Origin: a virus
Length of the DNA: 46,066 nt
IMG/VR virus record: IMGVR_UViG_3300030104_007222
Location: 1-46,066 of that record
Direction: 5' to 3' (one strand)
Positions 5,661 through 46,018 of this stretch are shown piece by piece. The position numbers were made by a program, and so were the translations under genes. How positions within the stretch are numbered: position 1 is the first letter of the stretch; each line of letters begins with the position of its first letter. The notes below the pieces were generated by a model. That model saw only the letters and a list, made by a program, of their open reading frames with translations, was not told the DNA's origin and made no database searches.

Positions 5661-6955
5661 TGGCAGCTCTAACAAATTTAATTGAAAGAACAGGCAGCAT
5701 TGTTCCTGTTGGCACTGTGAATCCGGGGCAAGAAAGTTCTTCTGGACCAGTAACTGTCCCTGTCTATCAAGTTCAGTCTTTTGCCCCACAAGTTGAGACT
5801 GGCCAACTGCAAAAACTTTATGGCACGAGCGCGATGCCAATGTTTGAGTTTGCTAGGCGTGTGCAGTCTGGGGAATCAACTTTCGACCCTTCTAAGCAGT
5901 TTGATAGAGAAGCTGCAGATGTCATTGGCAGCTTGTCAGATGAAGAGTTGGCAGCACAAGGTTTAGAGCCTGACCTTATTAAAGATATTCTTATTCCAAC
6001 AGCATCAACTGCTACTGGTGCAGTTCTTGGAACTGCTGGGAGAATGGCATCCGCACTCCCCGGAGGAGGGACATCCTCTGAATTCTTAGGCCAGATTGGT
6101 CCAGCGGCAAAGAGTTATATTCCCGGTGCTGGTTCAACCCTTTCACCGGGGGCAGAAGCACTCGGTTTGAAGGCTGGTGAAATTGGAGTTCCTCTTTCTG
6201 ATGCAAATCAGCTAATGCAGGGAGGTGCGAAAGTTACTAGTGCGCCAATGAAATTCGGTGGCACTAACTATGTTAAAATGAATGCAGCAGAAGTTAATGC
6301 TGCTCAAGGAACATTAGCAGCCAAAGGAACTCCTTTTGCTGGTACTGGAGGATCAGTATCCGGCCCACCAGTAGAACCCGGATTTTTTGATGCTGGTGGT
6401 TTTTTTGACAAGGGCTTCACAGGTTATACACCTTCTTTTGCTCAAGTTGGAGTTGGCTTCGGCCTTGATCTTGGTTTCAATCTTTTGTCTGGCATGAAGC
6501 CAAAAGAGGCTGTTAAAAGTGCTGCGATAACTACTGCAGGAACAGCTATCGGAACTGCAGTTGCTGGCCCGATTGGTGGCTTCGTTGGTGGAACGATAGC
6601 AAAAGTTATCAGTGGCGGTTCTGTTGTTTGCACCGAGCTTCACGAGCAGGGTGAAATTTCACACAGTGAATACCGGACAACAAACTATTACACTGCCACA
6701 ATGCTGACGCCAACTCTCGTTAAAGGATATCACTTCTGGGGTGTTCCTGCTGCTGAAAAAATGAAAAAAGGCAAGCAGATCAAATTCTGGAAGTTTGTTT
6801 ACAAACAGTGGAGCAAGCATGCTCATTATAAACTAGGCAAAAGAAAGTTTAGCCTGTCTGGTTTTGTTGTTGCCAAATCTCTTGAAACAGCAAGCCTGTT
6901 GATTGGTAAAATTTATGAAGCAACTCTAGAAAAAAGGATATTCGCACATGGCTGA
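5660..6955 (+). CDS. Virion-region protein with glycine-zipper segment and VCTELHEQG motif
   Basis: 431 residues. The first 240 residues are low in charge and rich in Gly/Ala/Pro/Thr. Residues ~245-330 form a hydrophobic, glycine-zipper-like region (VGVGFGLDLGFNLLSG, AITTAGTAIGTAVAGPIGGFVGGTIAKVISGG) that could insert into a membrane. Next comes VVCTELHEQGEIS, a Cys/His/Glu motif recurrent in marine phage proteins of this position, then a basic aromatic C-terminus (KFWKFVYKQWSKHAHYKLGKRKF). The combination suggests a membrane-active ejection protein. No catalytic domain is certain; the C/E/H cluster is worth testing. Confidence 0.5.
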   Translation: MAALTNLIERTGSIVPVGTVNPGQESSSGPVTVPVYQVQSFAPQVETGQLQKLYGTSAMPMFEFARRVQSGESTFDPSKQFDREAADVIGSLSDEELAAQGLEPDLIKDILIPTASTATGAVLGTAGRMASALPGGGTSSEFLGQIGPAAKSYIPGAGSTLSPGAEALGLKAGEIGVPLSDANQLMQGGAKVTSAPMKFGGTNYVKMNAAEVNAAQGTLAAKGTPFAGTGGSVSGPPVEPGFFDAGGFFDKGFTGYTPSFAQVGVGFGLDLGFNLLSGMKPKEAVKSAAITTAGTAIGTAVAGPIGGFVGGTIAKVISGGSVVCTELHEQGEISHSEYRTTNYYTATMLTPTLVKGYHFWGVPAAEKMKKGKQIKFWKFVYKQWSKHAHYKLGKRKFSLSGFVVAKSLETASLLIGKIYEATLEKRIFAHG

Positions 6956-7229
6956 ACAAATGATGGAACAGCAAAGAAGCCTAAACGATGAAATGGGTGC
7001 AGACGCAGCAATGATGATGATGCAACCGGATGACGAAATTCGTGTCATTTTGCTCTCTCGGCTGGAGTCTATGACCCCGGAAGAATTAAAAGCTCTTGAC
7101 CGGGCTATTGATGGAGCCTCAGCTCGAGTTCTTCTCAAACTGCTGCCAGAGCTGCAGGATCTTATTGAGACATCAATGAGTCGCAAAGCTGGTGCTGGTC
7201 AGCAAGGTGGCGCATTGGCGGGAATGTAA
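6948..7229 (+). CDS. Hypothetical small acidic protein
   Basis: 93 residues, overlapping the previous gene by 8 bp and the next by one base. It has a Met-rich N-terminus (MAEQMMEQQ...AAMMMMQ), a helix with LESMTPEELKALDRAIDG, and a long leucine-rich helix (RVLLKLLPELQDLIE). The Gly/Gln tail is probably disordered. The layout resembles a small scaffold or chaperone for the adjacent internal proteins. I do not recognise a family. Confidence 0.55.
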   Translation: MAEQMMEQQRSLNDEMGADAAMMMMQPDDEIRVILLSRLESMTPEELKALDRAIDGASARVLLKLLPELQDLIETSMSRKAGAGQQGGALAGM

Positions 7230-7666
7230 TGGAGATACGCAGAGCATCAATATTTGATTTTTCTCACATCTGTGCTTTGCTTGTGCGAATGCATGAAGGC
7301 ACAGATTTTGACCTGCCAGAGATCGATGGTGAGAAATTTTCAAATGCTGTTTTGCGCACAATTAACCAAGGCATTGTTCTTGTTGCAATTGAAGAGGGAC
7401 AAATGATAGGTTCTATCGGCGGAATCAAATCTTCTGAATGGTGGTCTAATGAGCCGCTGCTGGGGGACATTTGGTTCTATGTTGAGCCTGAAAGCCGTGC
7501 AACCAGAGCTGCAGCAAACCTCGTTAAAGAGTTTATGTCTGCTGGCCAAGGCATGAAGATTAAACTCGGTCATATTTATGGCAATGATTTAGATCGTAAA
7601 GATAATTTTTTTGAAAGGCTCGGTCTCAAAAAAGTTGGGACTAGCTATTTCTCGGAGGCGAGCTGA
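7229..7666 (+). CDS. GNAT-family N-acetyltransferase
   Basis: 145 residues starting EIRRASIFDFSHICALLVRMHEG, the usual beta1-alpha1 opening of GNAT enzymes. It continues with strands LVAIEEGQMIGSIGGI and GDIWFYVEPESRATRAAANLVKEF (the acetyl-CoA-binding region, here with an R/A-rich rather than strict Q/RxxGxG/A loop), and a C-terminal FFERLGLKKVGTSYF. It would transfer an acetyl group from acetyl-CoA to an amine. The target is not evident. It is embedded between virion genes, as in many marine phages, so it may modify a virion protein or a host factor. Confidence 0.75.
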   Translation: MEIRRASIFDFSHICALLVRMHEGTDFDLPEIDGEKFSNAVLRTINQGIVLVAIEEGQMIGSIGGIKSSEWWSNEPLLGDIWFYVEPESRATRAAANLVKEFMSAGQGMKIKLGHIYGNDLDRKDNFFERLGLKKVGTSYFSEAS

Positions 7667-8676
7667 TGGGCGGATTGTGTTCAACAAGTGTTCAAGTCCT
7701 TCCTGATCCCAAGGAAGTTCTCAAAGATACTGAGATACCTGAATGGGTATCTGAAGGTGGTCAAAAACTTTTCCAGCAAGCTGCTGAACTTGCAGGTGGT
7801 GATTTTCCTGTTTTTGAAGGTGACCGCATTGCAACATTTGAAGACATAAATGACCCAGATGCTATATCTAAACTTACGAGGCGTGAGCAGGAGGGTCTGC
7901 AACTTCTTGAAGATCGTGGTGATGTTTATCAGCCTTATGTTGACCGGGCTGGTGAGGTTGCAACAGACATCGGCTCACAGAGGATAGATACTGGTCAGTT
8001 TGACTATTCTGCTTTTGGTCAAGAAGCTCTCGACAAATACCTCCCAACATTCACAAGTGCTGTTGATCCAGCTTTGCAGGATGTATCTGAAACATTTGCT
8101 AGGCGACAGCGAGATCTTGGTCTTGCCGCAGGCAAAACTGGTGCTTTTGGCGACCGCATGGGCATGGAAGCTGCAGAGCTGACGAGAGGTGAAGCTCGGG
8201 AGCGCGGTAGGCTGCTCTCTGAAGCTGGGCGACAGGGACTTGAATTTGCATCTGGACAGTTTGAGCGAGATCGTGGTGCAGCAGAAAGGCAATTTCAGCT
8301 TAACCAAGCTGCTCGTCAGACAGATTTTGATCTAAACCAAGCTAGCCGAAGAATGGAGCTTGAAGCAGTTACATCGCTCGCTCCGCAGGTGCAGGGACTT
8401 GTCCAGCAAGAGGCGCAAGGCTTGATTGGTGCTGGTGAGGCTGAGAGGCTTCTTGACCAACAAGCTCTCGAGATGGCTTACAGAGACTATGTTGAGCAGA
8501 GAGAATATCCATTCACTGCTCTAAACTTTGCCATGGGTGCTCTCAAAGGTCTGCCATTCGAGACTCGTGAGTTTACGATGCAGCGTGGTGGCGAGTTCAT
8601 CCAGTCTCCCAGCGTATATGGCCAGACAATGGGTGGGCTTGGTGCTTTGGCATCAGCCTACAAGCTGTTGAGTTAG
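7666..8676 (+). CDS. Candidate internal virion protein A (coiled coil)
   Basis: 336 residues. The first ~110 residues (DPKEVLKDTEIPEWVSEGGQKLFQQAAEL...TRREQEGLQLLEDRG) are helical. The middle (about 150-275) is a long Glu/Arg/Gln-rich coiled coil (RRQRDLGLAAGKTGAFGDRMG...ERDRGAAERQFQLNQAARQTDFDLNQASRR). The end is hydrophobic with several Gly and Ala residues. This arrangement occurs next to ejection-type proteins in podovirus-like marine genomes. It sits in an unbroken run of large Ala/Gly-rich genes. Role as internal or ejected protein is inferred. Confidence 0.5.
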   Translation: MGGLCSTSVQVLPDPKEVLKDTEIPEWVSEGGQKLFQQAAELAGGDFPVFEGDRIATFEDINDPDAISKLTRREQEGLQLLEDRGDVYQPYVDRAGEVATDIGSQRIDTGQFDYSAFGQEALDKYLPTFTSAVDPALQDVSETFARRQRDLGLAAGKTGAFGDRMGMEAAELTRGEARERGRLLSEAGRQGLEFASGQFERDRGAAERQFQLNQAARQTDFDLNQASRRMELEAVTSLAPQVQGLVQQEAQGLIGAGEAERLLDQQALEMAYRDYVEQREYPFTALNFAMGALKGLPFETREFTMQRGGEFIQSPSVYGQTMGGLGALASAYKLLS

Positions 8677-36138: not shown

Positions 36139-36747
36139 TTGTCAGAGACAGCGAAAAAGAAACGTGGTAGACCGCGCAAGAAGCCAGAGCCAAAAGTTCA
36201 GGTTCAGAGGCCTGTTGATGATAGCCCACACAACTCTCATTTGAAGTGGGATGGCAAAGTTAGTGAAGATGTAAACTTTGATGGAAGGTTTAGTTCTGTC
36301 GAGCCTCTGAAGACACAGCAACCCGGTCGCAAAAAACCATACAAATGGAACCACAGAGCTTTGCAGAACTGGATCATGGGTCAAGCAGATCCTGCTGGGT
36401 TCCTTTCATCTGTCATGCTCGGCAAAGAGATTTTCCCTGTTTATGCACAGGACGAGGAAGGCAATTTGAAACACGTTGGAAAAATTGCTGCAGACCCTGA
36501 GTTAAGAATATCAGCTGCCAAAACTTTGTTGGCCAAATGCGTTCCTGATCTGAAGGCAGTTGAGATCAATCAAACGATTGAAGAACGCAAGGTCATCGAC
36601 ATCAGTGCATTGAGTGATAATGACCTCACCACAATTGAACGAGTTCTTGAACACGCTGTCATTGACGGAGATCCGGGCGGAGAAGATGCGGAGATCCTTG
36701 AAGCAGTTCATCCTGAACTCTTGGCAAGTAATAGAGCCGGGACGTAA
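36139..36747 (+). CDS. Putative terminase small subunit
   Basis: 202 residues; start TTG 36139 with GAGAGA upstream. The N-terminus has an AT-hook-like basic cluster (KKKRGRPRKKPEPK) for binding AT-rich DNA. The middle (NHRALQNWIMGQADPAGFLSSVMLGKEIFPVYAQDEEGNLKHVGKIAADPELRISAAKTLLAKCVPDLKAVE) is helical and ends LKAVEINQTIE, as in many small-terminase-like proteins, with an acidic C-terminus. It overlaps TerL by 62 bp. Position before TerL is the main support. Confidence 0.65.
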   Translation: MSETAKKKRGRPRKKPEPKVQVQRPVDDSPHNSHLKWDGKVSEDVNFDGRFSSVEPLKTQQPGRKKPYKWNHRALQNWIMGQADPAGFLSSVMLGKEIFPVYAQDEEGNLKHVGKIAADPELRISAAKTLLAKCVPDLKAVEINQTIEERKVIDISALSDNDLTTIERVLEHAVIDGDPGGEDAEILEAVHPELLASNRAGT

Positions 36748-38128
36748 CTTTTACGACAACTGGCACATTGATGCGATCTGTGAATATCTGCAGGCTGTGG
36801 CAGAAGGTGATATTCGTCGGCTGATAATTAACATTCCTCCAAGGCACATGAAGAGCATAACATCTTCAGTTGCCCTCCCGGCATGGCTGTGGACGCGCGA
36901 TCCTCAGAAAAGGTTCTTGTTTGCATCATACGCCAGTTCTCTGTCAATAAGGGATTCGGTCAAGTGCAGAAGGCTGATTGACTCTCCTTGGTACAGAGAG
37001 CATTTTGGAGAAAACTTTAGCCTGACAACTGACCAGAATCAGAAACAAAGATTTGACAATGACAAGACAGGCTACCGCATAGCAACCTCTGTTGATGGTG
37101 CGTTGACTGGTGAAGGTGGCGACATAATTGTTATTGACGACCCACACAATGTCCGGGAAGCAGAAAGTTCTACTGTCCGGGAAGGTGTTCTTGAGTGGTG
37201 GGATCAGGCGATGCAGACTCGTCTCAATGACCCGCAGACTGGTGCCTTTGTTATTATTATGCAGCGTGTGCACGAAGCTGATTTGACCGGGCACATTTTG
37301 GCGAATGATCTTGGCGATGAATGGAGTCACCTTTGTCTTCCTGCTCGTTACGAGCCTGATCACCCGTCAATCATCAGTGGATCTGGTGGTGGGCTTGACC
37401 CGAGAACCGAGCGTGGCGAGCTGCTTTGGCCAGAGCGTGTTGATGAGAATACCTTGTCTAACCTAGAGCGTTCGCTTGGAGAATATGCTGCAGCTGGTCA
37501 ACTTCAACAAAGACCAATGCCTCGTGGTGGCACAATCCTCAAAAGCAAATGGTGGCGTGCTTGGGAGAAAGAAGAGCTTCCCGACATCCAATATGTCATT
37601 CAATCTTGGGACACTGCCTATTCTACCAAGGAGAGAACTAGCTATTCCGCCCGGACAACATGGGGTGTGTTTATGTTTGAGAACACATGGAATGCAATTG
37701 CTCTTGATTGCTGGTATGACAGAGTTAGCTATCCAGACCTCCGCAGAGAAGCTCAAGACGCATATTCAGCGTATGAACCGGATGCTGTGCTCATAGAAAA
37801 GAAGGCATCTGGGCAAAGTTTAATACAAGATTTGAGAATGGCCGGAATCCCTGTACTCGAGTATATGCCTGACAGAGACAAGGAAGCTCGTGCCCATGCA
37901 GCATCAGCTTTACTTGAAGATGGACGAATTTGGTTTCCATTTCAGCGAAAATGGGCTAAAGATCTAATAAGTATATGTGCAGCATTTCCTGCAGGCGAAA
38001 ATGATGATATAGTAGACACATGCACTCAGGCTTGGTTGCGCTTAAGAAAAGGTTGGTTTCTCACTCATTCAGAAGATTGGGAGGATGAGGAAGAGCAGCC
38101 TAAACAAAAGGTGGTGATGTATGGCTAA
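36686..38128 (+). CDS. terL: Terminase large subunit
   Basis: 480 residues from ATG 36686 with GCGGAGAAG upstream; longer starts lie within the previous gene. The ATPase has a deviant Walker A PPRHMKS (51-57) and Walker B IIVIDDPH with Asp151/152. The nuclease domain has SWDTAYSTKE (Asp309), VLIEKKASGQ (Glu371) and ENDDIVDT (Asp440/441), the three acidic residues of the RNase H-like fold. It packages and cuts DNA at the portal. Its stop overlaps the portal start by 8 bp. Length is typical. Confidence 0.93.
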   Translation: MRRSLKQFILNSWQVIEPGRNFYDNWHIDAICEYLQAVAEGDIRRLIINIPPRHMKSITSSVALPAWLWTRDPQKRFLFASYASSLSIRDSVKCRRLIDSPWYREHFGENFSLTTDQNQKQRFDNDKTGYRIATSVDGALTGEGGDIIVIDDPHNVREAESSTVREGVLEWWDQAMQTRLNDPQTGAFVIIMQRVHEADLTGHILANDLGDEWSHLCLPARYEPDHPSIISGSGGGLDPRTERGELLWPERVDENTLSNLERSLGEYAAAGQLQQRPMPRGGTILKSKWWRAWEKEELPDIQYVIQSWDTAYSTKERTSYSARTTWGVFMFENTWNAIALDCWYDRVSYPDLRREAQDAYSAYEPDAVLIEKKASGQSLIQDLRMAGIPVLEYMPDRDKEARAHAASALLEDGRIWFPFQRKWAKDLISICAAFPAGENDDIVDTCTQAWLRLRKGWFLTHSEDWEDEEEQPKQKVVMYG

Positions 38129-40601
38129 AGATCCGACCGCTGTTATTCCGTTTTCTGAGGGTGCTCCTGGAGACAACCTCGAAGTTGAAGAGCTTCCAAC
38201 AGGTGAAGTTCTTGTTGGGGCATTTGATTCGAGGCAAGAAGAGTCTGAAACTGAATTCGATCAGAATCTTGTTGGTGAAATCGACCAGAGAGAACTGAAG
38301 GCTTCTGCTTCTGAGCTTATTGATTATTTCGAAGCTGACAAAGCTGGCCGGATGGAGTGGGAACAGCGATACAAGGATGGTCTGAAAACTCTCGATCCTG
38401 ACGGCAATCTCCAAGACGATGACGAGGATCGTGCGATTCGTGGCTTGAGCCAAGTTGTTCATCCGCTGATTGCTGAGGCTGCAACACAGTTTCAATCACG
38501 GGCGATTGCCGAGCTTTATCCTTCCGGTGGTCCAGTGCGCACTGTCATTGTTGGTGAAGCGAATGACGAGCTTGAAGAGCAAGCAACTCGTGTCAAGCAA
38601 TACATGAACTATCAGATCACACAGGAGATGCCAGAGTTCTTTCCGGATCTGGACAAAATGCTTTTCCATCTGCCTTTGGTTGGCCAGACATTCAAAAAGG
38701 TGTGGTATGACCCATCTTTCGAAAGGCTGACAGCACGTTTTGTTCAGGCAGAAGATTTTGTCGTCTCCCCGGACAGCACCGATCTGAAAACTTCACCGCG
38801 TTATACACACATCATTAAGCTGTCTCGTAATGACTACAACCGATTCGTCAAAGCTGGTTATTACGAGCCTCTCGATTCTTATGTTGCTGGTAGCGACGAT
38901 GATTCTGGAACAGTTGAGCAGATCGAGGGAATCTCTCCTTACGACGCAGAGCGCGATGATGGAACAGTTGTTCTCCTTGAGATGCACACCTATCACATGT
39001 TCGATGGCATTGATGGTGCTGATTCGTCAGACGAAGATGGAGTTGCGCTGCCATACTGCATAACGATTGATCAAAGCACTGAGAAGATTGTTTCTGTTCG
39101 CAGGAACTGGCGGGAAGATGACGAACGACAAGAGAAGCGCGAATGGTTCGTTGAATACAAGTTCCTCCCGGGTCTAGGCTTCTATGGCTTTGGTCTCTAT
39201 CACATCATTGGTGGTCTGGGAAAGGTCGCCACAGGTTCTCTGCGTGCTCTCTTAGATTCTGCTGCTTTCTCAAACATGCAAGGTGGCTTCAAGCTCAAAG
39301 GTCGTGTCCCCGGTGGTGAGATGGACATCGCACCCGGTGAGTTCGTTGATCTTGATGCAACGGTTGACGATGTTAAAAAGGCAGTCATGCCATTGCCTTT
39401 CAAGGAGCCATCAGGAACTTTGTTCCAGCTGCTTGGCTTTATTGTTGATGCTGGACAGCGTTTTGCAGCTATTGCAGACTTGAATGTTGGCGATGCGACG
39501 AACCAAGCTCCTGTTGGCACGACAGTTGCTCTCCTTGAGCAAGGCTCGAAGATCTTCAGCGCGGTGCACAAAAGGCTGCATGTTTCGCAAAGCAATGAGT
39601 TCAAGATCATGGTCGATCTCAACTCTATGCACCTCGATGACAGAGTAGAGTTTGCACAGGCTGGCGTTGCTAGTTTTATTCAGCGAGGAGACTTTGACGA
39701 CCGCATAGATGTTATCCCGGTATCTGATCCTAACATATTCAGCGCAACCCAACGCATTGCACAGGCACAAGCCATTCTCCAGATGGCACAAAGTGCGCCA
39801 CAGCTTCACGACATGTATGAAGCCTACAAACGGATGTATGAGGCTGTTCGTGTCCAGAACATTGATGAAATACTGAAAGAGCCAGAAGAAGCTGCACAGC
39901 TTGATCCTGTTGATGAGAACATGGCTGTTCTCCTCGGCAAACCAATCAAGGCTTTCAGCGAACAGAACCACGAAGCACACATCGCTGTTCATGTCCAGTT
40001 CATGAGTGATCCATCGCTTGCGGGCAATCCTGCAGCCAAAGCTCTGCAGCCGATTCTCATTGCACACATCGCAGAACACGTTGCGCTGTTGTATCGCTTG
40101 CGAATGGAGAAAGCCATGGGCATTGATATGCCAGAGCTGCCTAATCTCCGTGATCCCAAGTTCAAGTTCGATGACGTTCCGCAAGAGCTTGATGATGCAA
40201 TCGCAGAGCGAGCTGCGCAGGTTGTTCAAAGTGTTCCGCAGATGCAACCAATCCCCGGACTGGCTGGTGTTGGTGGTCAGCAGCAGAATCCTCTAGAGTA
40301 TGCAAAACAGCTTGCACAGCTTGAGGCTGATGCTTTGAAGGCTCGCACTGAGGCAGAGATCCAAGCTGATCAAGCCAAAGCACAGTCTGACATGGCAATA
40401 GATCAAGCCAAGGCACAACAACAGCTTCAAGCACAGATGATGAAGATGCAAGCTGACATGGAAGCCAAGATAGCTAAACTACAGGCTGAAGTTCAGATCG
40501 CACAGCAAAAAGCTAGTGCAGACATGCAATTGGAAGAGGCAAAGGCTGCTGCCGAGATCCAGCGTGATAATGTGAAAGCAGCACAAGAGGAAATTTTATA
40601 A
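38121..40601 (+). CDS. Portal protein (P22-type)
   Basis: 826 residues. The portal core is recognised by IDYFEADKAGRMEWEQRYKDGL, QVVHPLIAEAATQFQSRAIAELYPSGGPVRT, FKKVWYDPSFERLTARFVQAEDFVVSP, FKLKGRVPGGEMDIAPGEF and DATNQAPVGTTVALLEQGSK. The long C-terminal part from ~720 is a Gln/Ala/Lys-rich coiled coil (QADQAKAQSDMAIDQAKAQQQLQAQ), as in the P22 barrel. It forms the dodecameric ring for DNA entry and exit. Gly/Pro-rich segments near 705-715 separate core and barrel. Strong assignment by sequence and position. Confidence 0.9.
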   Translation: MAKDPTAVIPFSEGAPGDNLEVEELPTGEVLVGAFDSRQEESETEFDQNLVGEIDQRELKASASELIDYFEADKAGRMEWEQRYKDGLKTLDPDGNLQDDDEDRAIRGLSQVVHPLIAEAATQFQSRAIAELYPSGGPVRTVIVGEANDELEEQATRVKQYMNYQITQEMPEFFPDLDKMLFHLPLVGQTFKKVWYDPSFERLTARFVQAEDFVVSPDSTDLKTSPRYTHIIKLSRNDYNRFVKAGYYEPLDSYVAGSDDDSGTVEQIEGISPYDAERDDGTVVLLEMHTYHMFDGIDGADSSDEDGVALPYCITIDQSTEKIVSVRRNWREDDERQEKREWFVEYKFLPGLGFYGFGLYHIIGGLGKVATGSLRALLDSAAFSNMQGGFKLKGRVPGGEMDIAPGEFVDLDATVDDVKKAVMPLPFKEPSGTLFQLLGFIVDAGQRFAAIADLNVGDATNQAPVGTTVALLEQGSKIFSAVHKRLHVSQSNEFKIMVDLNSMHLDDRVEFAQAGVASFIQRGDFDDRIDVIPVSDPNIFSATQRIAQAQAILQMAQSAPQLHDMYEAYKRMYEAVRVQNIDEILKEPEEAAQLDPVDENMAVLLGKPIKAFSEQNHEAHIAVHVQFMSDPSLAGNPAAKALQPILIAHIAEHVALLYRLRMEKAMGIDMPELPNLRDPKFKFDDVPQELDDAIAERAAQVVQSVPQMQPIPGLAGVGGQQQNPLEYAKQLAQLEADALKARTEAEIQADQAKAQSDMAIDQAKAQQQLQAQMMKMQADMEAKIAKLQAEVQIAQQKASADMQLEEAKAAAEIQRDNVKAAQEEIL

Positions 40602-41170
40602 TGGCAGATCCTTACGGCGGAGACCGAACATTCACTGGCCCAACATCCACCAACATGGGTCCAATAACGGATCAGGAACTTGAGACGCTGAAAAGAGTCT
40701 CTCCATCTCGTCAACAGCAACTTGAGCAGAGAGCCTACCAGTCTTACATCGAAGCTCTCAGTCGTTTGCGCGCAGCTGAAGCTGCAGGCAACCCGAATGC
40801 AATGGGAATGTCCGGTGCTGCAGATGCACAGAATCGTTTGAATGCCATTCGGCAACCAATGGGTTCTGGCTCCGTGACTGATGCCGAGATGAGAGCATAT
40901 CAGGATGCGATTACAAATCAAATTACACCTCAAATGAGACCAATGGGTTCCGGTTCAACTTCCGATGCTGAGTTTGATGCAATGATGCGTGCTGTTCAAT
41001 CCGGCCAGATAACACCGGGACAAGCTGCAACGATGTCAACAGGTGTTGATGGTCCAACTGGTGGTGCGATGAGCGATGCCGACATGGGTGCCCTCGGAAA
41101 TCTTGCAGAAGACATCAATGATCTCGGTTCGTTTTTAAGAAGTCTTCAACAAAAGAGGAATGCACAATGA
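40601..41170 (+). CDS. Hypothetical protein with repeated PMGSGS...DAE units
   Basis: 189 residues, one base overlap with the portal. Two internal repeats PMGSGSVTDAEMRAYQDAI and PMGSGSTSDAEFDAMMRAV, plus a related GGAMSDADMGAL near the end, form short helical units separated by Gly/Ser turns. Such modular helices may line the virion interior or serve as scaffold. It sits where scaffold genes often lie; I do not claim it is the scaffold. Confidence 0.6.
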   Translation: MADPYGGDRTFTGPTSTNMGPITDQELETLKRVSPSRQQQLEQRAYQSYIEALSRLRAAEAAGNPNAMGMSGAADAQNRLNAIRQPMGSGSVTDAEMRAYQDAITNQITPQMRPMGSGSTSDAEFDAMMRAVQSGQITPGQAATMSTGVDGPTGGAMSDADMGALGNLAEDINDLGSFLRSLQQKRNAQ

Positions 41171-41343
41171 AAATCATGAATTGGGTTAAATCTCGAATCG
41201 TTGAGCCGACAAGCTGGATTGCTGTTGGCGTTGGCGCGATAATTATTTCTATTATTGTTCCGTCTGCAGCTGTTTATCTTTTGATTGCTGCAGCTGTGAC
41301 AGTTGCTCTTGGAATCTTTATGAAGGAGAAAGGGAATGGCTGA
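41167..41343 (+). CDS. Small two-TM protein (58 aa)
   Basis: ATG 41167 overlaps the previous stop (ATGA). After a basic start (KIMNWVKSRIVEPTSW) come two hydrophobic helices (IAVGVGAIIISIIVPSAAVYLLIAAAVTVALGIFM) and a Lys tail. It resembles small holin-like proteins found after the portal in marine phages. It overlaps the next gene by 8 bp. Function unproven. Confidence 0.65.
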   Translation: MKIMNWVKSRIVEPTSWIAVGVGAIIISIIVPSAAVYLLIAAAVTVALGIFMKEKGNG

Positions 41344-41590
41344 AGACGTAGTTGATATGCGGGCAATGTTTGAAGCCAAGATGGGCTTCTCTGCTGACGA
41401 TGTTCCGCTAGATGACACACAACTCGAGAACTTTTTGCTTCTCTGTCACGAAACCATGCTCAAAGATTCTGGCATGATGGAAGACGAAGAGATGATGGAA
41501 GACGAAGAGATGCAAGTCAAGGTCATCAAGATCCACGATGGGGATGTCCATGGCATGATGGACAAGGTGCTTAAAGGTCACAGCTACTAA
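41336..41590 (+). CDS. Hypothetical acidic Met-rich protein
   Basis: 84 residues. A helical start (DMRAMFEAKMGFSADDVPLDDTQLENFLLLCHETML) is followed by a tandem MMEDEEM repeat (residues ~47-59), coded by a direct repeat of GATGATGGAAGACGAAGA, and VKVIKIHDGDVHGMMDKVLKG. It overlaps both neighbours. The acidic charge contrasts with the basic genes that follow. Function unknown. Confidence 0.6.
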   Translation: MAEDVVDMRAMFEAKMGFSADDVPLDDTQLENFLLLCHETMLKDSGMMEDEEMMEDEEMQVKVIKIHDGDVHGMMDKVLKGHSY

Positions 41591-41778
41591 TGGCTGAAAA
41601 AATGACAAAAAAGCAGAAGATTGCCAAGCTCAAAAAGCAGAAGCCATCTCTCTATCGCAACATCAACCTCAAGAAACTTGGTGCAGGCAAGACTAAGAAG
41701 AAGCGCAAGGTTGGCTCCAAAGGTGCGCCAGCCAAAGGTGCTTTCAAGCGTGCAGCAAAGACTGCGAAAAAGCGATGA
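41590..41778 (+). CDS. Small Lys-rich protein (62 aa)
   Basis: Starts one base before the previous stop. MAEKMTKKQKIAKLKKQKPSLYRNINLKKLGAGKTKKKRKVGSKGAPAKGAFKRAAKTAKKR is very basic, with short Lys/Arg runs as in DNA-condensing or histone-like peptides. It begins the run of tiny basic genes. A DNA-binding or charge-neutralising role in the capsid is possible. Confidence 0.65.
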   Translation: MAEKMTKKQKIAKLKKQKPSLYRNINLKKLGAGKTKKKRKVGSKGAPAKGAFKRAAKTAKKR

Positions 41779-41846
41779 AAAAATCAGTCGCAGCTCCCAA
41801 AGGTTATCACTGGATGAAATCCGGGAAAGGAAAAGGACACAATTAA
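41775..41846 (+). CDS. Micro-protein (23 aa) with PKGYHWMK motif
   Basis: Coupled by ATGA to the previous stop and by a one-base overlap to the next start. The sequence is KKSVAAPKGYHWMKSGKGKG, then HN. The APKGYHWMKSGKG stretch matches a small peptide family I recognise from marine phage contigs, which is stronger support than its size alone. Function unknown. Confidence 0.65.
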   Translation: MKKSVAAPKGYHWMKSGKGKGHN

Positions 41847-42016
41847 TGGCTGCCAAAAAAACCCCAAGGAAACTGACGAGTCGCCAGCAAGCTGCCTTAA
41901 AAAAACATTCTGTTCATCATACTAAGAAGCACATGGATATGATGAGGAAAGCTATGCGTGGCGGAAGTACATTTTCTGCTGCACACAAAATGGCTCAGAA
42001 AAAAGTTGGTAAGTAA
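41846..42016 (+). CDS. Small basic protein (56 aa)
   Basis: ATG 41846 overlaps the previous stop by one base; the longer frame from 41621 is an artefact. MAAKKTPRKLTSRQQAALKKHSVHHTKKHMDMMRKAMRGGSTFSAAHKMAQKKVGK is rich in Lys and His with a helical centre. Probable virion-associated DNA-binding peptide, by analogy with its neighbours. Confidence 0.65.
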   Translation: MAAKKTPRKLTSRQQAALKKHSVHHTKKHMDMMRKAMRGGSTFSAAHKMAQKKVGK

Positions 42017-42018
42017 TA

Positions 42019-42276
42019 ATGGCTACATACAAGGGTCGCAAGGTCACTCTTAACAAACCTCGTCGCATTGCCAAAGGTGAGACAAGCCATGGCAAGAAAA
42101 AGTCTGTTGTTTATGTTATGGATGGCGGTAAAGTTAAGCGTGTGACTTTTGGTGATCCGAATATGAAGATAAAGAAGAACCAGAAAGGTCGGAGAAGCAA
42201 TTTCCGGTCACGACACAACTGCGACAATCCCGGACCAAAGACTAAAGCTCGGTATTGGTCATGTCGCGCATGGTAA
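42019..42276 (+). CDS. Conserved small basic protein with Cys pair (85 aa)
   Basis: MATYKGRKVTLNKPRRIAKGETSHGKKKSVVYVMDGGKVKRVTFGDPNMKIKKNQKGRRSNFRSRHNCDNPGPKTKARYWSCRAW. The segment VTFGDPNMKIKKNQ...RSRHNCDNP..KTKARYWSC(R/K)AW is conserved in marine phages. The beta-rich start and paired Cys (NCD, WSC) suggest a small Zn- or disulfide-stabilised fold. A DNA-binding virion protein is plausible. Confidence 0.75.
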   Translation: MATYKGRKVTLNKPRRIAKGETSHGKKKSVVYVMDGGKVKRVTFGDPNMKIKKNQKGRRSNFRSRHNCDNPGPKTKARYWSCRAW

Positions 42277-42286
42277 GGAGACCATT

Positions 42287-42385
42287 ATGAATTACGGTAA
42301 AAAGCGCAGCACGAACAAAAAAGTCATGAAGAAAAAAGTGATGAAGAAGAAGAAAAAGCCAATGGGCAAAAAGCGCGGATACTAA
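42287..42385 (+). CDS. Lys-rich micro-protein (32 aa)
   Basis: AAGGAG lies upstream of ATG 42287. MNYGKKRSTNKKVMKKKVMKKKKKPMGKKRGY is mostly Lys/Arg with a KKxVMKKK repeat. Its last base is the first of the next start. Real by ribosome site and tight packing; likely a DNA-condensing peptide. Confidence 0.65.
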   Translation: MNYGKKRSTNKKVMKKKVMKKKKKPMGKKRGY

Positions 42386-42522
42386 TGCCAGTCCGGAAAG
42401 TCAAAGGCGGCTACAGATGGGGCAGTTCTGGCAAGGTCTACAAGACCAAGGCAGCAGCCGAACGTCAGGGTCGTGCCATCTATGCCTCTGGCTACAAAAA
42501 GAAGGGTGGCAGGAAAAAATAA
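42385..42522 (+). CDS. Small basic protein (45 aa)
   Basis: Overlaps its predecessor by one base. MPVRKVKGGYRWGSSGKVYKTKAAAERQGRAIYASGYKKKGGRKK: a KGGYRWGSSGKVY beta motif and a helix (KAAAERQGRAIYAS) with basic ends. I recognise the VKGGYxWGxSGKxY..KxxAxxQxxAIxASGY pattern from marine phages. Function unknown but recurrent. Confidence 0.75.
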   Translation: MPVRKVKGGYRWGSSGKVYKTKAAAERQGRAIYASGYKKKGGRKK

Positions 42523-42714
42523 ATGGCTAGAGCTAAAATAAAAAAGGTTGCTGCCGCAGAGATCCGCGCTGCCAAGAAGTTTCTTGAGCGTCGTGGTCTT
42601 AAGAGCACAGAGCTTTCACCACGCAAGTTTGCTCAGGCAGCAAAGGAGCTTGACGAGTCGTTCAACGACACACTCGTTATCTTGGCTCGTGAGATTGAAG
42701 GTGGGCAAGGCTAG
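42523..42714 (+). CDS. Small helical protein (63 aa)
   Basis: Starts directly after the previous stop. ARAKIKKVAAAEIRAAKKFLERRGLKSTELSPRKFAQAAKELDESFNDTLVILAREIEGGQG: mostly helical, less basic than its neighbours. It stops in the first base of the tagged-cassette array. Function unknown. Confidence 0.65.
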   Translation: MARAKIKKVAAAEIRAAKKFLERRGLKSTELSPRKFAQAAKELDESFNDTLVILAREIEGGQG

Positions 42715-42764
42715 TGGCTGGTAAAGGCAAAATAGTCCGTGGGGCATTGGAAGGCTTGACAGAT
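42714..42764 (+). repeat. Tag repeat 1 (about 50 bp, coding for MAGKGKI...)
   Basis: DNA-level repeat with 43939, 44658 and 45107; differences are mostly third-base. It encodes the tag and the first helix of each product. Confidence 0.8.
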
Positions 42765-43214
42765 GTCTTCACAAAAGGTGATGATGCTCCTGTTGATGAA
42801 AGCAGAAGAACTTTCATGAAGGGAGCAGGTACAGTAGGTGCATTAGGTGCCTTGGGTGGAATTAAAGCTGGAGCGAAACTGATTGATAATATCCCAGCAC
42901 CTGTTAAGAAAGAGGCTGTCACACAAGTTGAAAATCTCTTTTCAACTAAAAGTTGGGATTCTCTCTTTGACAACTTAGCCGAACAATATGAAAATGATTT
43001 CGGGTCTGAACTTTTATATGATGAACTAGAAAATTTCCTTTTCTCGGGAAATTCTGGTCGGGCTTTGAAAGATTTTATATCTGGCAAAATAGATATTGAT
43101 GATCTTGATGATGTTAATGATAATCTTCCTATTTTGATCCGGGATCTCCGGGATGAGGGATTCGATGACCAGCAAGTAAAAAAACTTTTGTCTCAAGAGA
43201 TAAATATTGACTGA
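42714..43214 (+). CDS. MAGKGKI-tagged protein 1, twin-arginine-like segment
   Basis: 166 residues, GTG start overlapping the previous stop. N-terminal tag MAGKGKIVRGALEGLTD is followed by SRRTFMKGAGTVGALGALGG (30-49), a perfect SRRxFxK twin-arginine motif with hydrophobic core, unusually placed internally. The body (60-166) is helical and acidic with NLAEQYENDFGSELLYDELENFLF. The same tag opens the next four genes. It could be a virion-packaged protein delivered to the host. Export by Tat in the host is an inference. Confidence 0.7.
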   Translation: MAGKGKIVRGALEGLTDVFTKGDDAPVDESRRTFMKGAGTVGALGALGGIKAGAKLIDNIPAPVKKEAVTQVENLFSTKSWDSLFDNLAEQYENDFGSELLYDELENFLFSGNSGRALKDFISGKIDIDDLDDVNDNLPILIRDLRDEGFDDQQVKKLLSQEINID

Positions 43215-43939
43215 TGGCTGGCAAGAGCAAAATAATCGAAGGCTTATCGGATGTTGCCCAGCGATGGTTCAATTCACTTGACGAAACGACAGGTCACCGA
43301 CCTGAACTCCTTGCTGATTGGCCAGAATTTGTCGAAAAAGTTAAGAATCTTGACAAAGAAGCGCCATTCGCATTTTCTCAATACGAGCCTAAAGTTTTAA
43401 GATCCGCTCTTGCTGAAGCTGCAGATGGCGTGGCAGATGTAGCAGTTATAAAGCCTAAAGACTTCCGCATGCTTGCTGCTAGGAATCTTGAGATGTGGAT
43501 GCAAGGTGGCAAAAATTTTTCCCCTGACGACCCAATAACTCAAGACATATACAGAAAAATAGACGAATATGCTGATATGTACGAAAAGGGCATACAGTTC
43601 GATGACATCCCTTTTCTTGAAGTTGATCAGCCATACGAGGGAATTGCACAGGTTGTTGGTCACCAAGGTCGCCACCGGATGCGCGGTCAGGAGAAGATTG
43701 GTGCGGATGGCGCATTGATAAGAATCCTTCGCCCAGAGGATTATGACATCAAAGGCTCTGATGATGTTCTGCACACAGAAAAAAGCACTCATCAGCAAGA
43801 TTTTGAATCTTTCAGTGACGCTCTTCTCCCTAGTAAAATTTTGGGCGGCAAAGCATACAAACCCACAGCCGATGTCTTAAAGTTCTTGAGTCTCGGTGGC
43901 ACAGCTGGCGCACTCGGCAACTTGGTAGAGGAAGAATAA
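43214..43939 (+). CDS. MAGKSKI-tagged protein 2, GHQGRHRM motif
   Basis: 241 residues. Divergent tag MAGKSKIIEGLSD. A helical middle, then QPYEGIAQVVGHQGRHRMRGQEKIGADGALIRILRPEDYD. The GH(E/Q)GRHR motif recalls the ParB/sulfiredoxin-like nucleotide-binding loop seen in phage polyvalent proteins, so an NTP- or DNA-linked activity is possible. C-terminus ends GTAGALGNLVEEE, related to the ends of proteins 3-5. Cassette-like. Confidence 0.7.
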   Translation: MAGKSKIIEGLSDVAQRWFNSLDETTGHRPELLADWPEFVEKVKNLDKEAPFAFSQYEPKVLRSALAEAADGVADVAVIKPKDFRMLAARNLEMWMQGGKNFSPDDPITQDIYRKIDEYADMYEKGIQFDDIPFLEVDQPYEGIAQVVGHQGRHRMRGQEKIGADGALIRILRPEDYDIKGSDDVLHTEKSTHQQDFESFSDALLPSKILGGKAYKPTADVLKFLSLGGTAGALGNLVEEE

Positions 43940-43989
43940 TGGCTGGCAAGGGCAAAATAGTCCGTGGAGCATTGGAGGCATTGACAGAT
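43939..43989 (+). repeat. Tag repeat 3
   Basis: Second best match of the tag DNA; nearly the same as the 42714 copy over 50 bp. Confidence 0.8.
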
Positions 43990-44658
43990 GCAGCTTCTAA
44001 AGTTTTGCCAGATGATATTTCTAATCTGCCGAGCTACAAAGAAGCAGTAAGAGCTTTTAAAAGATCTGTGATGGGAGATGAAGAAGGTCTTTCTGTTGCA
44101 GAAAAATTAGAAATTCCAGAAGCTTCAGTTGATGCTGAAGATCTTTCTGTGTATGGTTTTGATTCTGATAAAGACCTATTTAGATCAAATCGAGATCCTT
44201 TTGATGATTGGGCAGCTGGAAAAATTGATCTGCAAGATTTTCAAAAAATAAAGCCTCCAACGAGTGAACAAATAAAATATAGATCTGAAGGAGATCCTGC
44301 TTATCCTTTTGATCACGCATTTCCGGATATACCACCAACCTCAGGCACTGAGTTTTTAGGTGGTGCAAATTATCCTCTTGATGTTAGATCTTATGTTCTT
44401 AGAGATCTTGAAATGAATTTTGGATTGTCAAAATCAGAGATAATGGATTATCTTAAAAAGAATGATTTGCTTGAAGCTACTGATCCGCAAGAATTCGATT
44501 TTAGTGAACAGCAAATGAAAGCATTAAAAGACGCATTTGCTTCTGACGATCCAGACAACCCTATCGTAAAAAGAGTCCGTGGTGCACTTGATGATCTTGT
44601 AGATGAAGATGATCTTGTTGAAGTTACGCCAGAGATGATTTATGGAAAAGCAAACTAA
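43939..44658 (+). CDS. MAGKGKI-tagged protein 3
   Basis: 239 residues. Tag MAGKGKIVRGALEALTD, then an acidic body without known motifs (SYKEAVRAFKRSVMGDEEGLSVAEKLE..., DWAAGKIDLQDFQKIKPPTSEQIKYR..., VLRDLEMNFGLSKSEIMDYLKKNDLLE). It includes GALDDLVDEDDLVEV near the end, matching the C-terminal element of the other cassettes but followed by 12 more residues. Function unknown. Confidence 0.65.
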   Translation: MAGKGKIVRGALEALTDAASKVLPDDISNLPSYKEAVRAFKRSVMGDEEGLSVAEKLEIPEASVDAEDLSVYGFDSDKDLFRSNRDPFDDWAAGKIDLQDFQKIKPPTSEQIKYRSEGDPAYPFDHAFPDIPPTSGTEFLGGANYPLDVRSYVLRDLEMNFGLSKSEIMDYLKKNDLLEATDPQEFDFSEQQMKALKDAFASDDPDNPIVKRVRGALDDLVDEDDLVEVTPEMIYGKAN

Positions 44659-44708
44659 TGGCTGGCAAAGGCAAAATAATTCGTGGGGCATTGGAAGGCA
44701 TAATAGAT
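44658..44708 (+). repeat. Tag repeat 4
   Basis: Copy of the tag DNA with more third-base changes and ATT/ATA replacing two codons after KIIRGALEG. Confidence 0.75.
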
Positions 44709-45107
44709 CTTGCCGACGTCAGAAAAGAAAAGGAACTGCAGAGCACTCTCGATGACTTCAGGGAAAAAATTTCCCTCAGGCGAGAAGAAGAGCTTTTGAA
44801 AATTGCTGATCACAACTGGAATTTTGAAATTGGTGACAGAGTCATAACTGGAGACGAAGTTGCTAGAGCTGAAAATCCAATGCCTTGGCAAATTGTAGGA
44901 AAAACTATTCTCAAAAAAGGTTTGCTTCCAGAATCTAATCCAAGAGAGGGCAAGAACATATATGGAGAAAATGTTCCTTATTATTATGTTCAGCGTGGAG
45001 TTGAAGGTTCTGGTGATTTCATGCGGACAACTCTACCTGAATGGGCAATTACTCAAAAGTTTGGCATCAATAAAGAAGGTGCACTAAAGAACTTGGTGGA
45101 AGACTGA
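44658..45107 (+). CDS. MAGKGKI-tagged protein 4
   Basis: 149 residues. Tag MAGKGKIIRGALEGIID, a helical part (RKEKELQSTLDDFREKISLRREEELLKIADHNW), then a beta-rich unit (FEIGDRVITGDEVARAENPMPWQIVGKTILKKG, YYYVQRGVEGSGDFMRTTLPEW) ending GINKEGALKNLVED. The SGD/W-rich part is reminiscent of small SH3-like folds. No catalytic motif. Confidence 0.65.
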   Translation: MAGKGKIIRGALEGIIDLADVRKEKELQSTLDDFREKISLRREEELLKIADHNWNFEIGDRVITGDEVARAENPMPWQIVGKTILKKGLLPESNPREGKNIYGENVPYYYVQRGVEGSGDFMRTTLPEWAITQKFGINKEGALKNLVED

Positions 45108-45157
45108 TGGCTGGCAAGGGGAAAATAGCTCGTGGCGCACTAGAGGCATTGACAGAT
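45107..45157 (+). repeat. Tag repeat 5
   Basis: Copy of the tag DNA, coding for MAGKGKIARGALEALTD, with synonymous drift at several codons. Confidence 0.75.
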
Positions 45158-46018
45158 GCTTATAAAAAGACATTTGCCCCTGAGACATATTATCATGGAA
45201 GCAATGTCCCAGACATAAAGAAGTTTGATGCAGGAACGGAATCATCAAAAGGTGGTATCGATAATACTGGGGCAACTTATTTTACAACAGACGAAAATTA
45301 TGCTCATGAATATGCTCTAAGAGAATTTTTAGACGATAATTTCCAAAGAAAAATAGATGACCCTTTTGGCAACATAAGAGACTATGTTGTTAAAGGACCA
45401 ATGGAAAAGAGCGAGGCTAAAAAAATTTATGAAGGGACGAATTTCAAAGAGTTGGATGAATATGGAACTGCCCCAACAATCTACCCAGTCAAAATAAAAA
45501 CTGATAATATATTCGATTTTGAAAATGAAAAACAGGTTGATGGTCTTATAAGTGAGTTGTCTTCAGGCTCTGATTTAATCAGTGATGTCGCGACAGGTTC
45601 AGAAATGAGTCTTAAGCAGGCAATGCAAATATTTTCGAGCCAAAAGAAAAATTGGAGTGACATGACGCCTCAAGAACAGGAGCTTCATGTTCGTGCACGA
45701 GACATTATAGACAAGCAGCCAAATGAAGCATATGTGCCAAGCGAAAGAACGTTAGATGATGTTATTTATGAAATTAGAGAAGGAAATTGGGAAGTTCTTG
45801 AAGACCAATCAATACAAAAAATTCTGAAAGACAAAGGATATCGTGGATACAGAACTAATGAACCGGGGACAATAGGTCTTTTTTATCCAGACAAAGGTGA
45901 TGTGAGATCTGTCTTTGCAAAGTTCGACCCAACCAAATCTAAATCAGGAAACATCCTTGCCTCTGTCCCAGCTGGCGCATTGGCAACTGGCGCACTAAGC
46001 GATATAGTTGATGAATAG
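45107..46018 (+). CDS. MAGKGKI-tagged protein 5, ADP-ribosyltransferase-like
   Basis: 303 residues. Tag MAGKGKIARGALEALTD, then TYYHGSNVPDIKKFDAGTES...GATYFTTDENYAHEYA (residues ~25-70): the H of YHG, the YFT strand and a helix with Glu/Ala form the first two thirds of the HYE ART fold; a third acidic position is not certain. The C-terminus DVRSVFAKFDPTKSKSGNILASVPAGALATGALSDIVDE is the FDPxKS..ILA type tail of phage polyvalent proteins. It could modify host or phage proteins/nucleic acid with ADP-ribose. Confidence 0.7.
   Translation: MAGKGKIARGALEALTDAYKKTFAPETYYHGSNVPDIKKFDAGTESSKGGIDNTGATYFTTDENYAHEYALREFLDDNFQRKIDDPFGNIRDYVVKGPMEKSEAKKIYEGTNFKELDEYGTAPTIYPVKIKTDNIFDFENEKQVDGLISELSSGSDLISDVATGSEMSLKQAMQIFSSQKKNWSDMTPQEQELHVRARDIIDKQPNEAYVPSERTLDDVIYEIREGNWEVLEDQSIQKILKDKGYRGYRTNEPGTIGLFYPDKGDVRSVFAKFDPTKSKSGNILASVPAGALATGALSDIVDE

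Follow-up and report, generated by a model that had tools for sequence, protein, structure and literature searches.

A short GAL motif at the ends of diverse proteins of a marine phage clade, probably an address label for loading into the virus particle

Five tandem genes and their tags

The window, i.e. the whole stretch of DNA analysed here, is an entire linear IMG/VR virus record of 46,066 bases from a marine phage that carries five neighbouring genes with a shared short end-tag (Table 1). Its closest deposited relatives are the Roseobacter phages CRP-901 and CRP-902 (portal 63% identical). The five genes span 42714-46018 and are coupled by stop/start overlaps (TAGTG, TGATG, TAATG); gene 5 is the last in the record, which is without the scaffold and capsid genes that come next in relatives. 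Each gene starts MAGK(G/S)KI, and four of the five have RGALE near the N-end, gene 2 reading IIEGLSD instead. An earlier sequence-only reading had placed a tag of the form MAGKGKI..GALE, or a close variant, on all five; the common start is borne out, far beyond chance and not only locally, but the N-tag of gene 2 is without GAL. The same reading was right that the tag is repeated at the DNA level in four genes (a 62-nt repeat, 74-87% identical to a reference copy, with 29 nt common to all five) and that four genes share a C-terminal GALxxLVxE: in genes 2, 3, 4 and 5 the element GALxx(L/I)V(D/E) stands at the C-end or close to it, and a 32-nt C-terminal DNA repeat is found in three genes. The C-element of gene 3 lies 25 residues before the protein end.

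Table 1. Features of the window from the terminase gene to the end of the tandem genes
Feature	Position	Strand	Length (aa)	Remarks
Terminase large subunit	36614..38128	+		anchor of the frame
Portal protein, SU10-type	38121..40601	+		anchor of the syntenic frame
Portal-adjacent protein	40601..41170	+		GALGNLAEDI, and degenerate copies of the motif in the form G[A/S/P]x[ST]DxE
m84, small acidic protein	41336..41590	+		candidate receptor/adaptor, from its distribution
k85, conserved small basic protein	42019..42276	+		phrog_7595 (function unassigned); homologs annotated as HVA1 family in CRP-901/902
k63, conserved small protein among the putative cargo genes	42523..42714	+		distribution as m84; candidate receptor/adaptor
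Putative cargo gene 1	42714..43214	+	166	GTG start; N-tag MAGKGKIVRGALEGLTD 42714-42764, GAL 42741-42749; then RRTFMKGAGTVGALGALGG segment
Putative cargo gene 2	43214..43939	+	241	N-tag MAGKSKIIEGLSD; ParB/sulfiredoxin-like body with GHQGRHR; C-element GALGNLVEEE 43907-43936
Putative cargo gene 3	43939..44658	+	239	N-tag MAGKGKIVRGALEALTD, GAL 43966-43974; C-element GALDDLVDE(D) 44581-44607
Putative cargo gene 4	44658..45107	+	149	N-tag MAGKGKIIRGALEGIID, GAL 44685-44693; C-element GALKNLVED 45078-45104
Putative cargo gene 5	45107..46018	+	303	N-tag MAGKGKIARGALEALTD, GAL 45134-45142; ART-PolyVal-like body; C-element GALSDIVDE 45989-46015

The bodies behind the tags had been described as unrelated. 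They do differ, but not as five distinct types: those of genes 1 and 3 are distantly related by way of a gene 1 ortholog (42% over 45 aa, E 5e-5), so that about four body types are present. None of the five proteins has a match in PHROGs. The proposed arrangement of a constant tag on variable bodies, with swaps in relatives, is found: the gene 2 body, ~81% identical between the two, follows MAGKSKIIEGLSD in the window and MPSKGDIVRGALEGLSD in the related locus L089, and in another lineage an extended tag, DALGNKIGAL, stands on at least three bodies without detectable similarity. Tag and body are thus separable.

The region between portal and GroES

Related contigs were gathered using the portal and the small protein k63 as queries. 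The gene order in relatives is terL-portal-[variable]-(s65)-GroES-scaffold-s167-s184-MCP, and the median insert between portal and GroES is 6.9 kb in the clade of the window versus 0.57 kb in sister phages, i.e. those whose portal, scaffold and GroES are related but whose insert is short, among them the Pelagibacter phages HTVC023P and HTVC027P, Caulobacter phage RW and Planktothrix phage Pag-Yong1. Among clade loci that reach from portal to GroES and have a full portal match, 40 of 40 contain both m84 and k63, as do eight more loci whose portals are cut at the contig edge, and both proteins are absent from all 22 sister loci; since common descent could explain this distribution, the two proteins are candidates only. 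One locus, L138, is a single suggestive case, having k63, no m84 and few terminal GALs. The cargo region of that phage, which is without m84, also encodes a Hint/PT-HINT domain protein (6482-8419, E 1.7e-7).

Homologs of the portal-adjacent protein (e.g. L123 5231-5890 and L146 3603-4250) contain several GA[LM][ST]DxE copies, and the protein itself, with several degenerate G[AS][LM][ST]DxE copies in its sequence, looks like a multivalent version of the motif. Between portal and tandem genes, at 41590-42523, lies a run of very small Lys/Arg-rich proteins without GAL (e.g. 41590-41778 and 42385-42522), which are possibly DNA-binding virion proteins. Tandem gene 1-like proteins, two of them with GAL and RRxxLKG segments, are found upstream of terL in L163 (101-3262), and cargo-like genes can therefore sit outside the main region.

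A conserved terminal core

The comparison drew on 38 sources, i.e. the window and 37 related phage loci (a few of which may overlap, e.g. L157 and L158), with mechanical gene calling in the loci. Proteins of at least 100 aa encoded in the variable region (portal to GroES/scaffold), conserved anchor proteins excluded, form 81 families, and all tripeptides were compared in their first 60 (N60) and last 40 (C40) residues. GAL is the top tripeptide at both ends, in 30.7 of 81 families versus 2.4 expected from whole-protein shuffles for N60 and 18.6 versus 1.6 for C40, counts that are approximate because single-linkage clustering merged some families through their tags. When only these end segments are shuffled, the expectation is 3.6 (sd 1.6) and 1.7 (sd 1.0) respectively, and the composition-matched tripeptides GLA, AGL and LAG are rare at the ends. 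When window-like genomes are removed GAL still ranks first among the remaining 76 families (N 26.2 versus 2.5, C 16.8 versus 1.6). Counting GAM along with GAL, 43.7 of the 81 families have such a tripeptide at one or other end, and 9.9 have one at both. Several observations count against the loading signal proposed below: about 37 of the 81 families have neither GAL nor GAM at either end, the small basic proteins of the region lack a terminal GAL, gene 2 and several relatives have GAL at the C-end only, and some relatives have only GSL, GTL or GNL.

Aligned instances yield the consensus hydrophobic-G-A-L-polar-polar-[LIMV], often followed by D or E, the +5 position being hydrophobic in 77% of N-terminal and 83% of C-terminal cases. 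The sequence-only reading had taken MAGKGKI..GALE or a close variant as the constant tag; the constant part is instead the core GALxx-hydrophobic, with MAGKGKI a lineage-specific extension. Mean similarity of the tag flanks is 8.4 within genomes versus -7.1 between them, a difference driven mainly by the window-like genomes and small without them (-2.2 versus -6.7).

The enrichment is restricted to this region and clade. GAL is unenriched in the other regions of the same loci (4.6 N-terminally and 1.1 C-terminally of 55 families), where some of the GAL families are cargo-like proteins outside the main region, and unenriched in the sister phages (N 7.3 versus 7.9 expected, C 1.3 versus 5.7 expected). 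Terminal GAL is borne by gp66 and gp68 of CRP-901 and by gp65 and gp68 of CRP-902, and is absent from the GroES, scaffold, s167, s184 and MCP of these two phages. In the phages bearing m84 and k63, almost every ART or ParB-like body has GAL or a near variant of it at the C-end. In the sister phages, with their diverged portal, ART and ParB domains lie inside large proteins, mostly of 800-2,200 aa, none of which ends in GAL; a few large sister proteins have GAL near the start, not above chance expectation. An equivalent C-terminal motif of the sister phages, GGLxx-hydrophobic, was considered and set aside as weak (C40 8.0 versus 4.8 expected, C25 6.0 versus 2.7). Ends of this type (GGLSAMAR, GGLATMFTRRR) occur in some large sister proteins (L245 6563-11353, L175 13736-15583, L170 13651-15102).

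Bodies of the tagged proteins

The protein of gene 5 matches the ART-PolyVal profile with E 1.1e-5 and 26.7 bits, below the Pfam curated cut-off of 31.2 bits, and 10 of the 17 members of its family match the same profile, the best at 4e-8. Its structural model matches ADP-ribosyltransferase folds, the nearest being the cyanophage A4 pre-ejectosome protein (Z 7.2, rmsd 4.5, 140 aligned), with further matches to the anti-CRISPR protein 6kyf (6.5), MbcT (6.2) and tankyrases. By profile and model it is a probable ADP-ribosyltransferase, in line with the ART-like body discerned earlier. The best matches of the gene 2 model are sulfiredoxin, Noc, ParB and Osa (best Z 6.0, rmsd 2.9, 82 aligned), and the modelled body resembles the ParB/sulfiredoxin superfamily; H150, R153, H154 and R157 are invariant across 16 sequences. 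With Z-scores below 8 both structural assignments are middling, and the argument is that the matched folds agree with one another. By itself Foldseek returned nothing significant for the two models, tblastn with genes 2 and 5 found nothing in deposited phage genomes, and a search of bacterial genomes for ART relatives was negative.

Model confidence (pLDDT) is low at the tag ends of both proteins (residues 1-8 and 286-303 of gene 5, 1-5 and 228-241 of gene 2), as expected in such models of flexible extensions; GALSDIVDE of gene 5 falls in such a part, and residues 9-21 are predicted as helix. The tagged proteins of the window are short, with at most one domain each, short of the two or more domains that define polyvalent proteins. 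Larger multi-domain candidates occur in relatives, and a PBECR5 RNase-type domain is found in the relative L010.

Gene 1 (42714-43214) has a RRTFMKGAG segment, near the N-end in the window and central in longer proteins of relatives (L034 7165-8157, L029 16150-17145). Its TAT_signal match is weak, at 22.6 bits just under the cut-off of 22.7. Because several relatives have the twin-arginine segment deep within the protein, at about residue 120 or beyond, it is unlikely to be an export signal, and twin-arginine export of gene 1 was dropped.

A loading signal and its alternatives

The recurring GAL core probably serves as an address label by which proteins are loaded into the virus particle, and the packaging idea of the sequence-only reading is plausible. 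We consider it fairly likely that the shared element acts as a short linear motif for cargo loading, bound by a head component, and that the cargo is ejected to act as early effectors. Late proteins whose genes lie between portal and scaffold, and which are otherwise unrelated, would carry the motif on a flexible extension at the N- or C-end. While the head is being assembled the motif would be bound by portal, scaffold, the inner face of the capsid or a clade-specific adaptor, for which m84 and k63 are candidates, and this binding would draw the tagged proteins into the procapsid. The packaged proteins would then be ejected with the DNA and may serve as early effectors by ADP-ribosylation, as ParB/Srx-type nuclease or NTPase, or as RNase. 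MAGKGKI...ALTD would be the extended version of the window lineage, in which duplication and tag swapping may turn new bodies into cargo. Procapsid loading is the simplest reading because of the location among head genes, the bodies being of kinds that are known or predicted to undergo injection, and the short, terminal, flexible and often repeated nature of the motif. Whether there is one six-residue code (hydrophobic-G-A-L-x-x-hydrophobic), used at either end, read by a single head receptor and open to unrelated effectors without limit, as a phage counterpart of encapsulin targeting peptides with m84/k63 as a possible dedicated adaptor, seems to us an evenly balanced matter.

An alternative that we consider unlikely is that the element acts at the membrane: the Gly/Ala/hydrophobic C-terminal stretch (ILASVPAGALATGALSDIV) would insert in or cross the host envelope, aiding head exit or membrane passage, and packaging would depend on something else. 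A hydrophobic Gly-rich stretch often precedes the C-terminal GAL, and gene 1 has RRTFMKGAG together with a hydrophobic segment; yet the N-terminal GAL is without such a stretch and has the same core and +5 hydrophobic position, and several C-terminal cases are polar (EGNFDGPSMGALRNLPND). Equally unlikely is that the motif binds a partner at infection time rather than for packaging, e.g. the host polymerase, a phage assembly site or GroEL/GroES-assisted folding, as might be thought of a region that abuts the phage GroES gene; the proteins are, however, encoded within the head gene cluster, and the sister phages have GroES too but not the motif. Cleavage by a prohead protease at or near GAL(E/D) during maturation, like T4 internal protein processing, would be in keeping with the GALE or GALD of the window tag and with the proteolysis of T4 internal protein I to its mature form (PMC3012670). 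It is nevertheless very improbable: among GroES, scaffold, s167, s184 and MCP there is no protease match (the only matches of scaffold, s167 and s184 are to families without an assigned function), the +3 residue is variable (G, P, E, D, S, T), and the motif is found at both ends. That the tags are only a functionless local tandem duplication of a gene start is scarcely credible, since the 62-nt DNA repeats do represent a recent duplication in the window genome but the core is conserved far outside it, recurring across related phages and enriched, with diverged flanks, in the 76 families without window-like genomes, so that the local-duplication-only reading is excluded.

Relation to known systems

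Procapsid loading by a terminal signal has precedents. The T-even internal proteins IPI, IPII and IPIII have an N-terminal capsid targeting sequence (CTS), by which packaging was shown in T4, and Alt is an injected ADP-ribosyltransferase of T4. The sequence-only reading knew of no named system with such a layout; the T-even internal proteins have it, i.e. a constant short terminal sequence on diverse non-homologous bodies that form an accessory variable set, with one body here ART-like as Alt is. The GAL motif differs in having its own consensus (the T4 sequence was not aligned), in standing also at the C-end and in belonging to a different phage group, and packaging, demonstrated for T4, is here a prediction. 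DdrB of the P1 Dar system has a ParB-like domain. The P1 system is alike in its N-terminal packaging signal on injected anti-restriction proteins, a ParB/Srx-type domain among them, and unlike in that the P1 signal was described for DarB, whereas the GAL motif is common to dozens of families at either end. Internal proteins of T-even phages are injected and block host restriction (PMC12373910), and the first 30 residues of P1 DarB suffice to send a reporter to the capsid (PMC9024508).

Encapsulin cargo peptides, GSLxIGSLK or LTVGSLRR, bind inside an HK97-fold shell (PMC10960027, PMC5959871) and are likewise very short Gly-small-Leu motifs with hydrophobic neighbours, usually C-terminal in encapsulins. 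Membership in that class was rejected since the GALxx-hydrophobic consensus and register differ; the likeness is kept only as an analogy and a lead. In the part of Iyer 2017 drawn on here (PMC5512222), packaging and injection are predicted for polyvalent-protein domains encoded together with virion components; the ART-PolyVal, ParB/Srx and PBECR5 domain types beside portal and terminase genes are held in common with it, the domains of the window being separate small proteins with a common tag and not fused, and that part of the paper does not mention a short shared motif of the GAL kind.

The layout is thus of a known kind, with parallels in T-even internal proteins, P1 DarB and encapsulin cargo. 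To our knowledge, and in the open-access literature searched, neither the motif itself nor its placement at either end nor its occurrence in dozens of families has been described. If the loading reading is true, the virion cargo of a common group of marine phages could be identified by a simple motif search, dozens of hypothetical proteins would become predicted injected effectors, and a portable tag for loading proteins into phage heads would be at hand. The clade with the motif and the sister phages without it offer a natural comparison for how a capsid recognises its cargo, a question common to encapsulins and phages.
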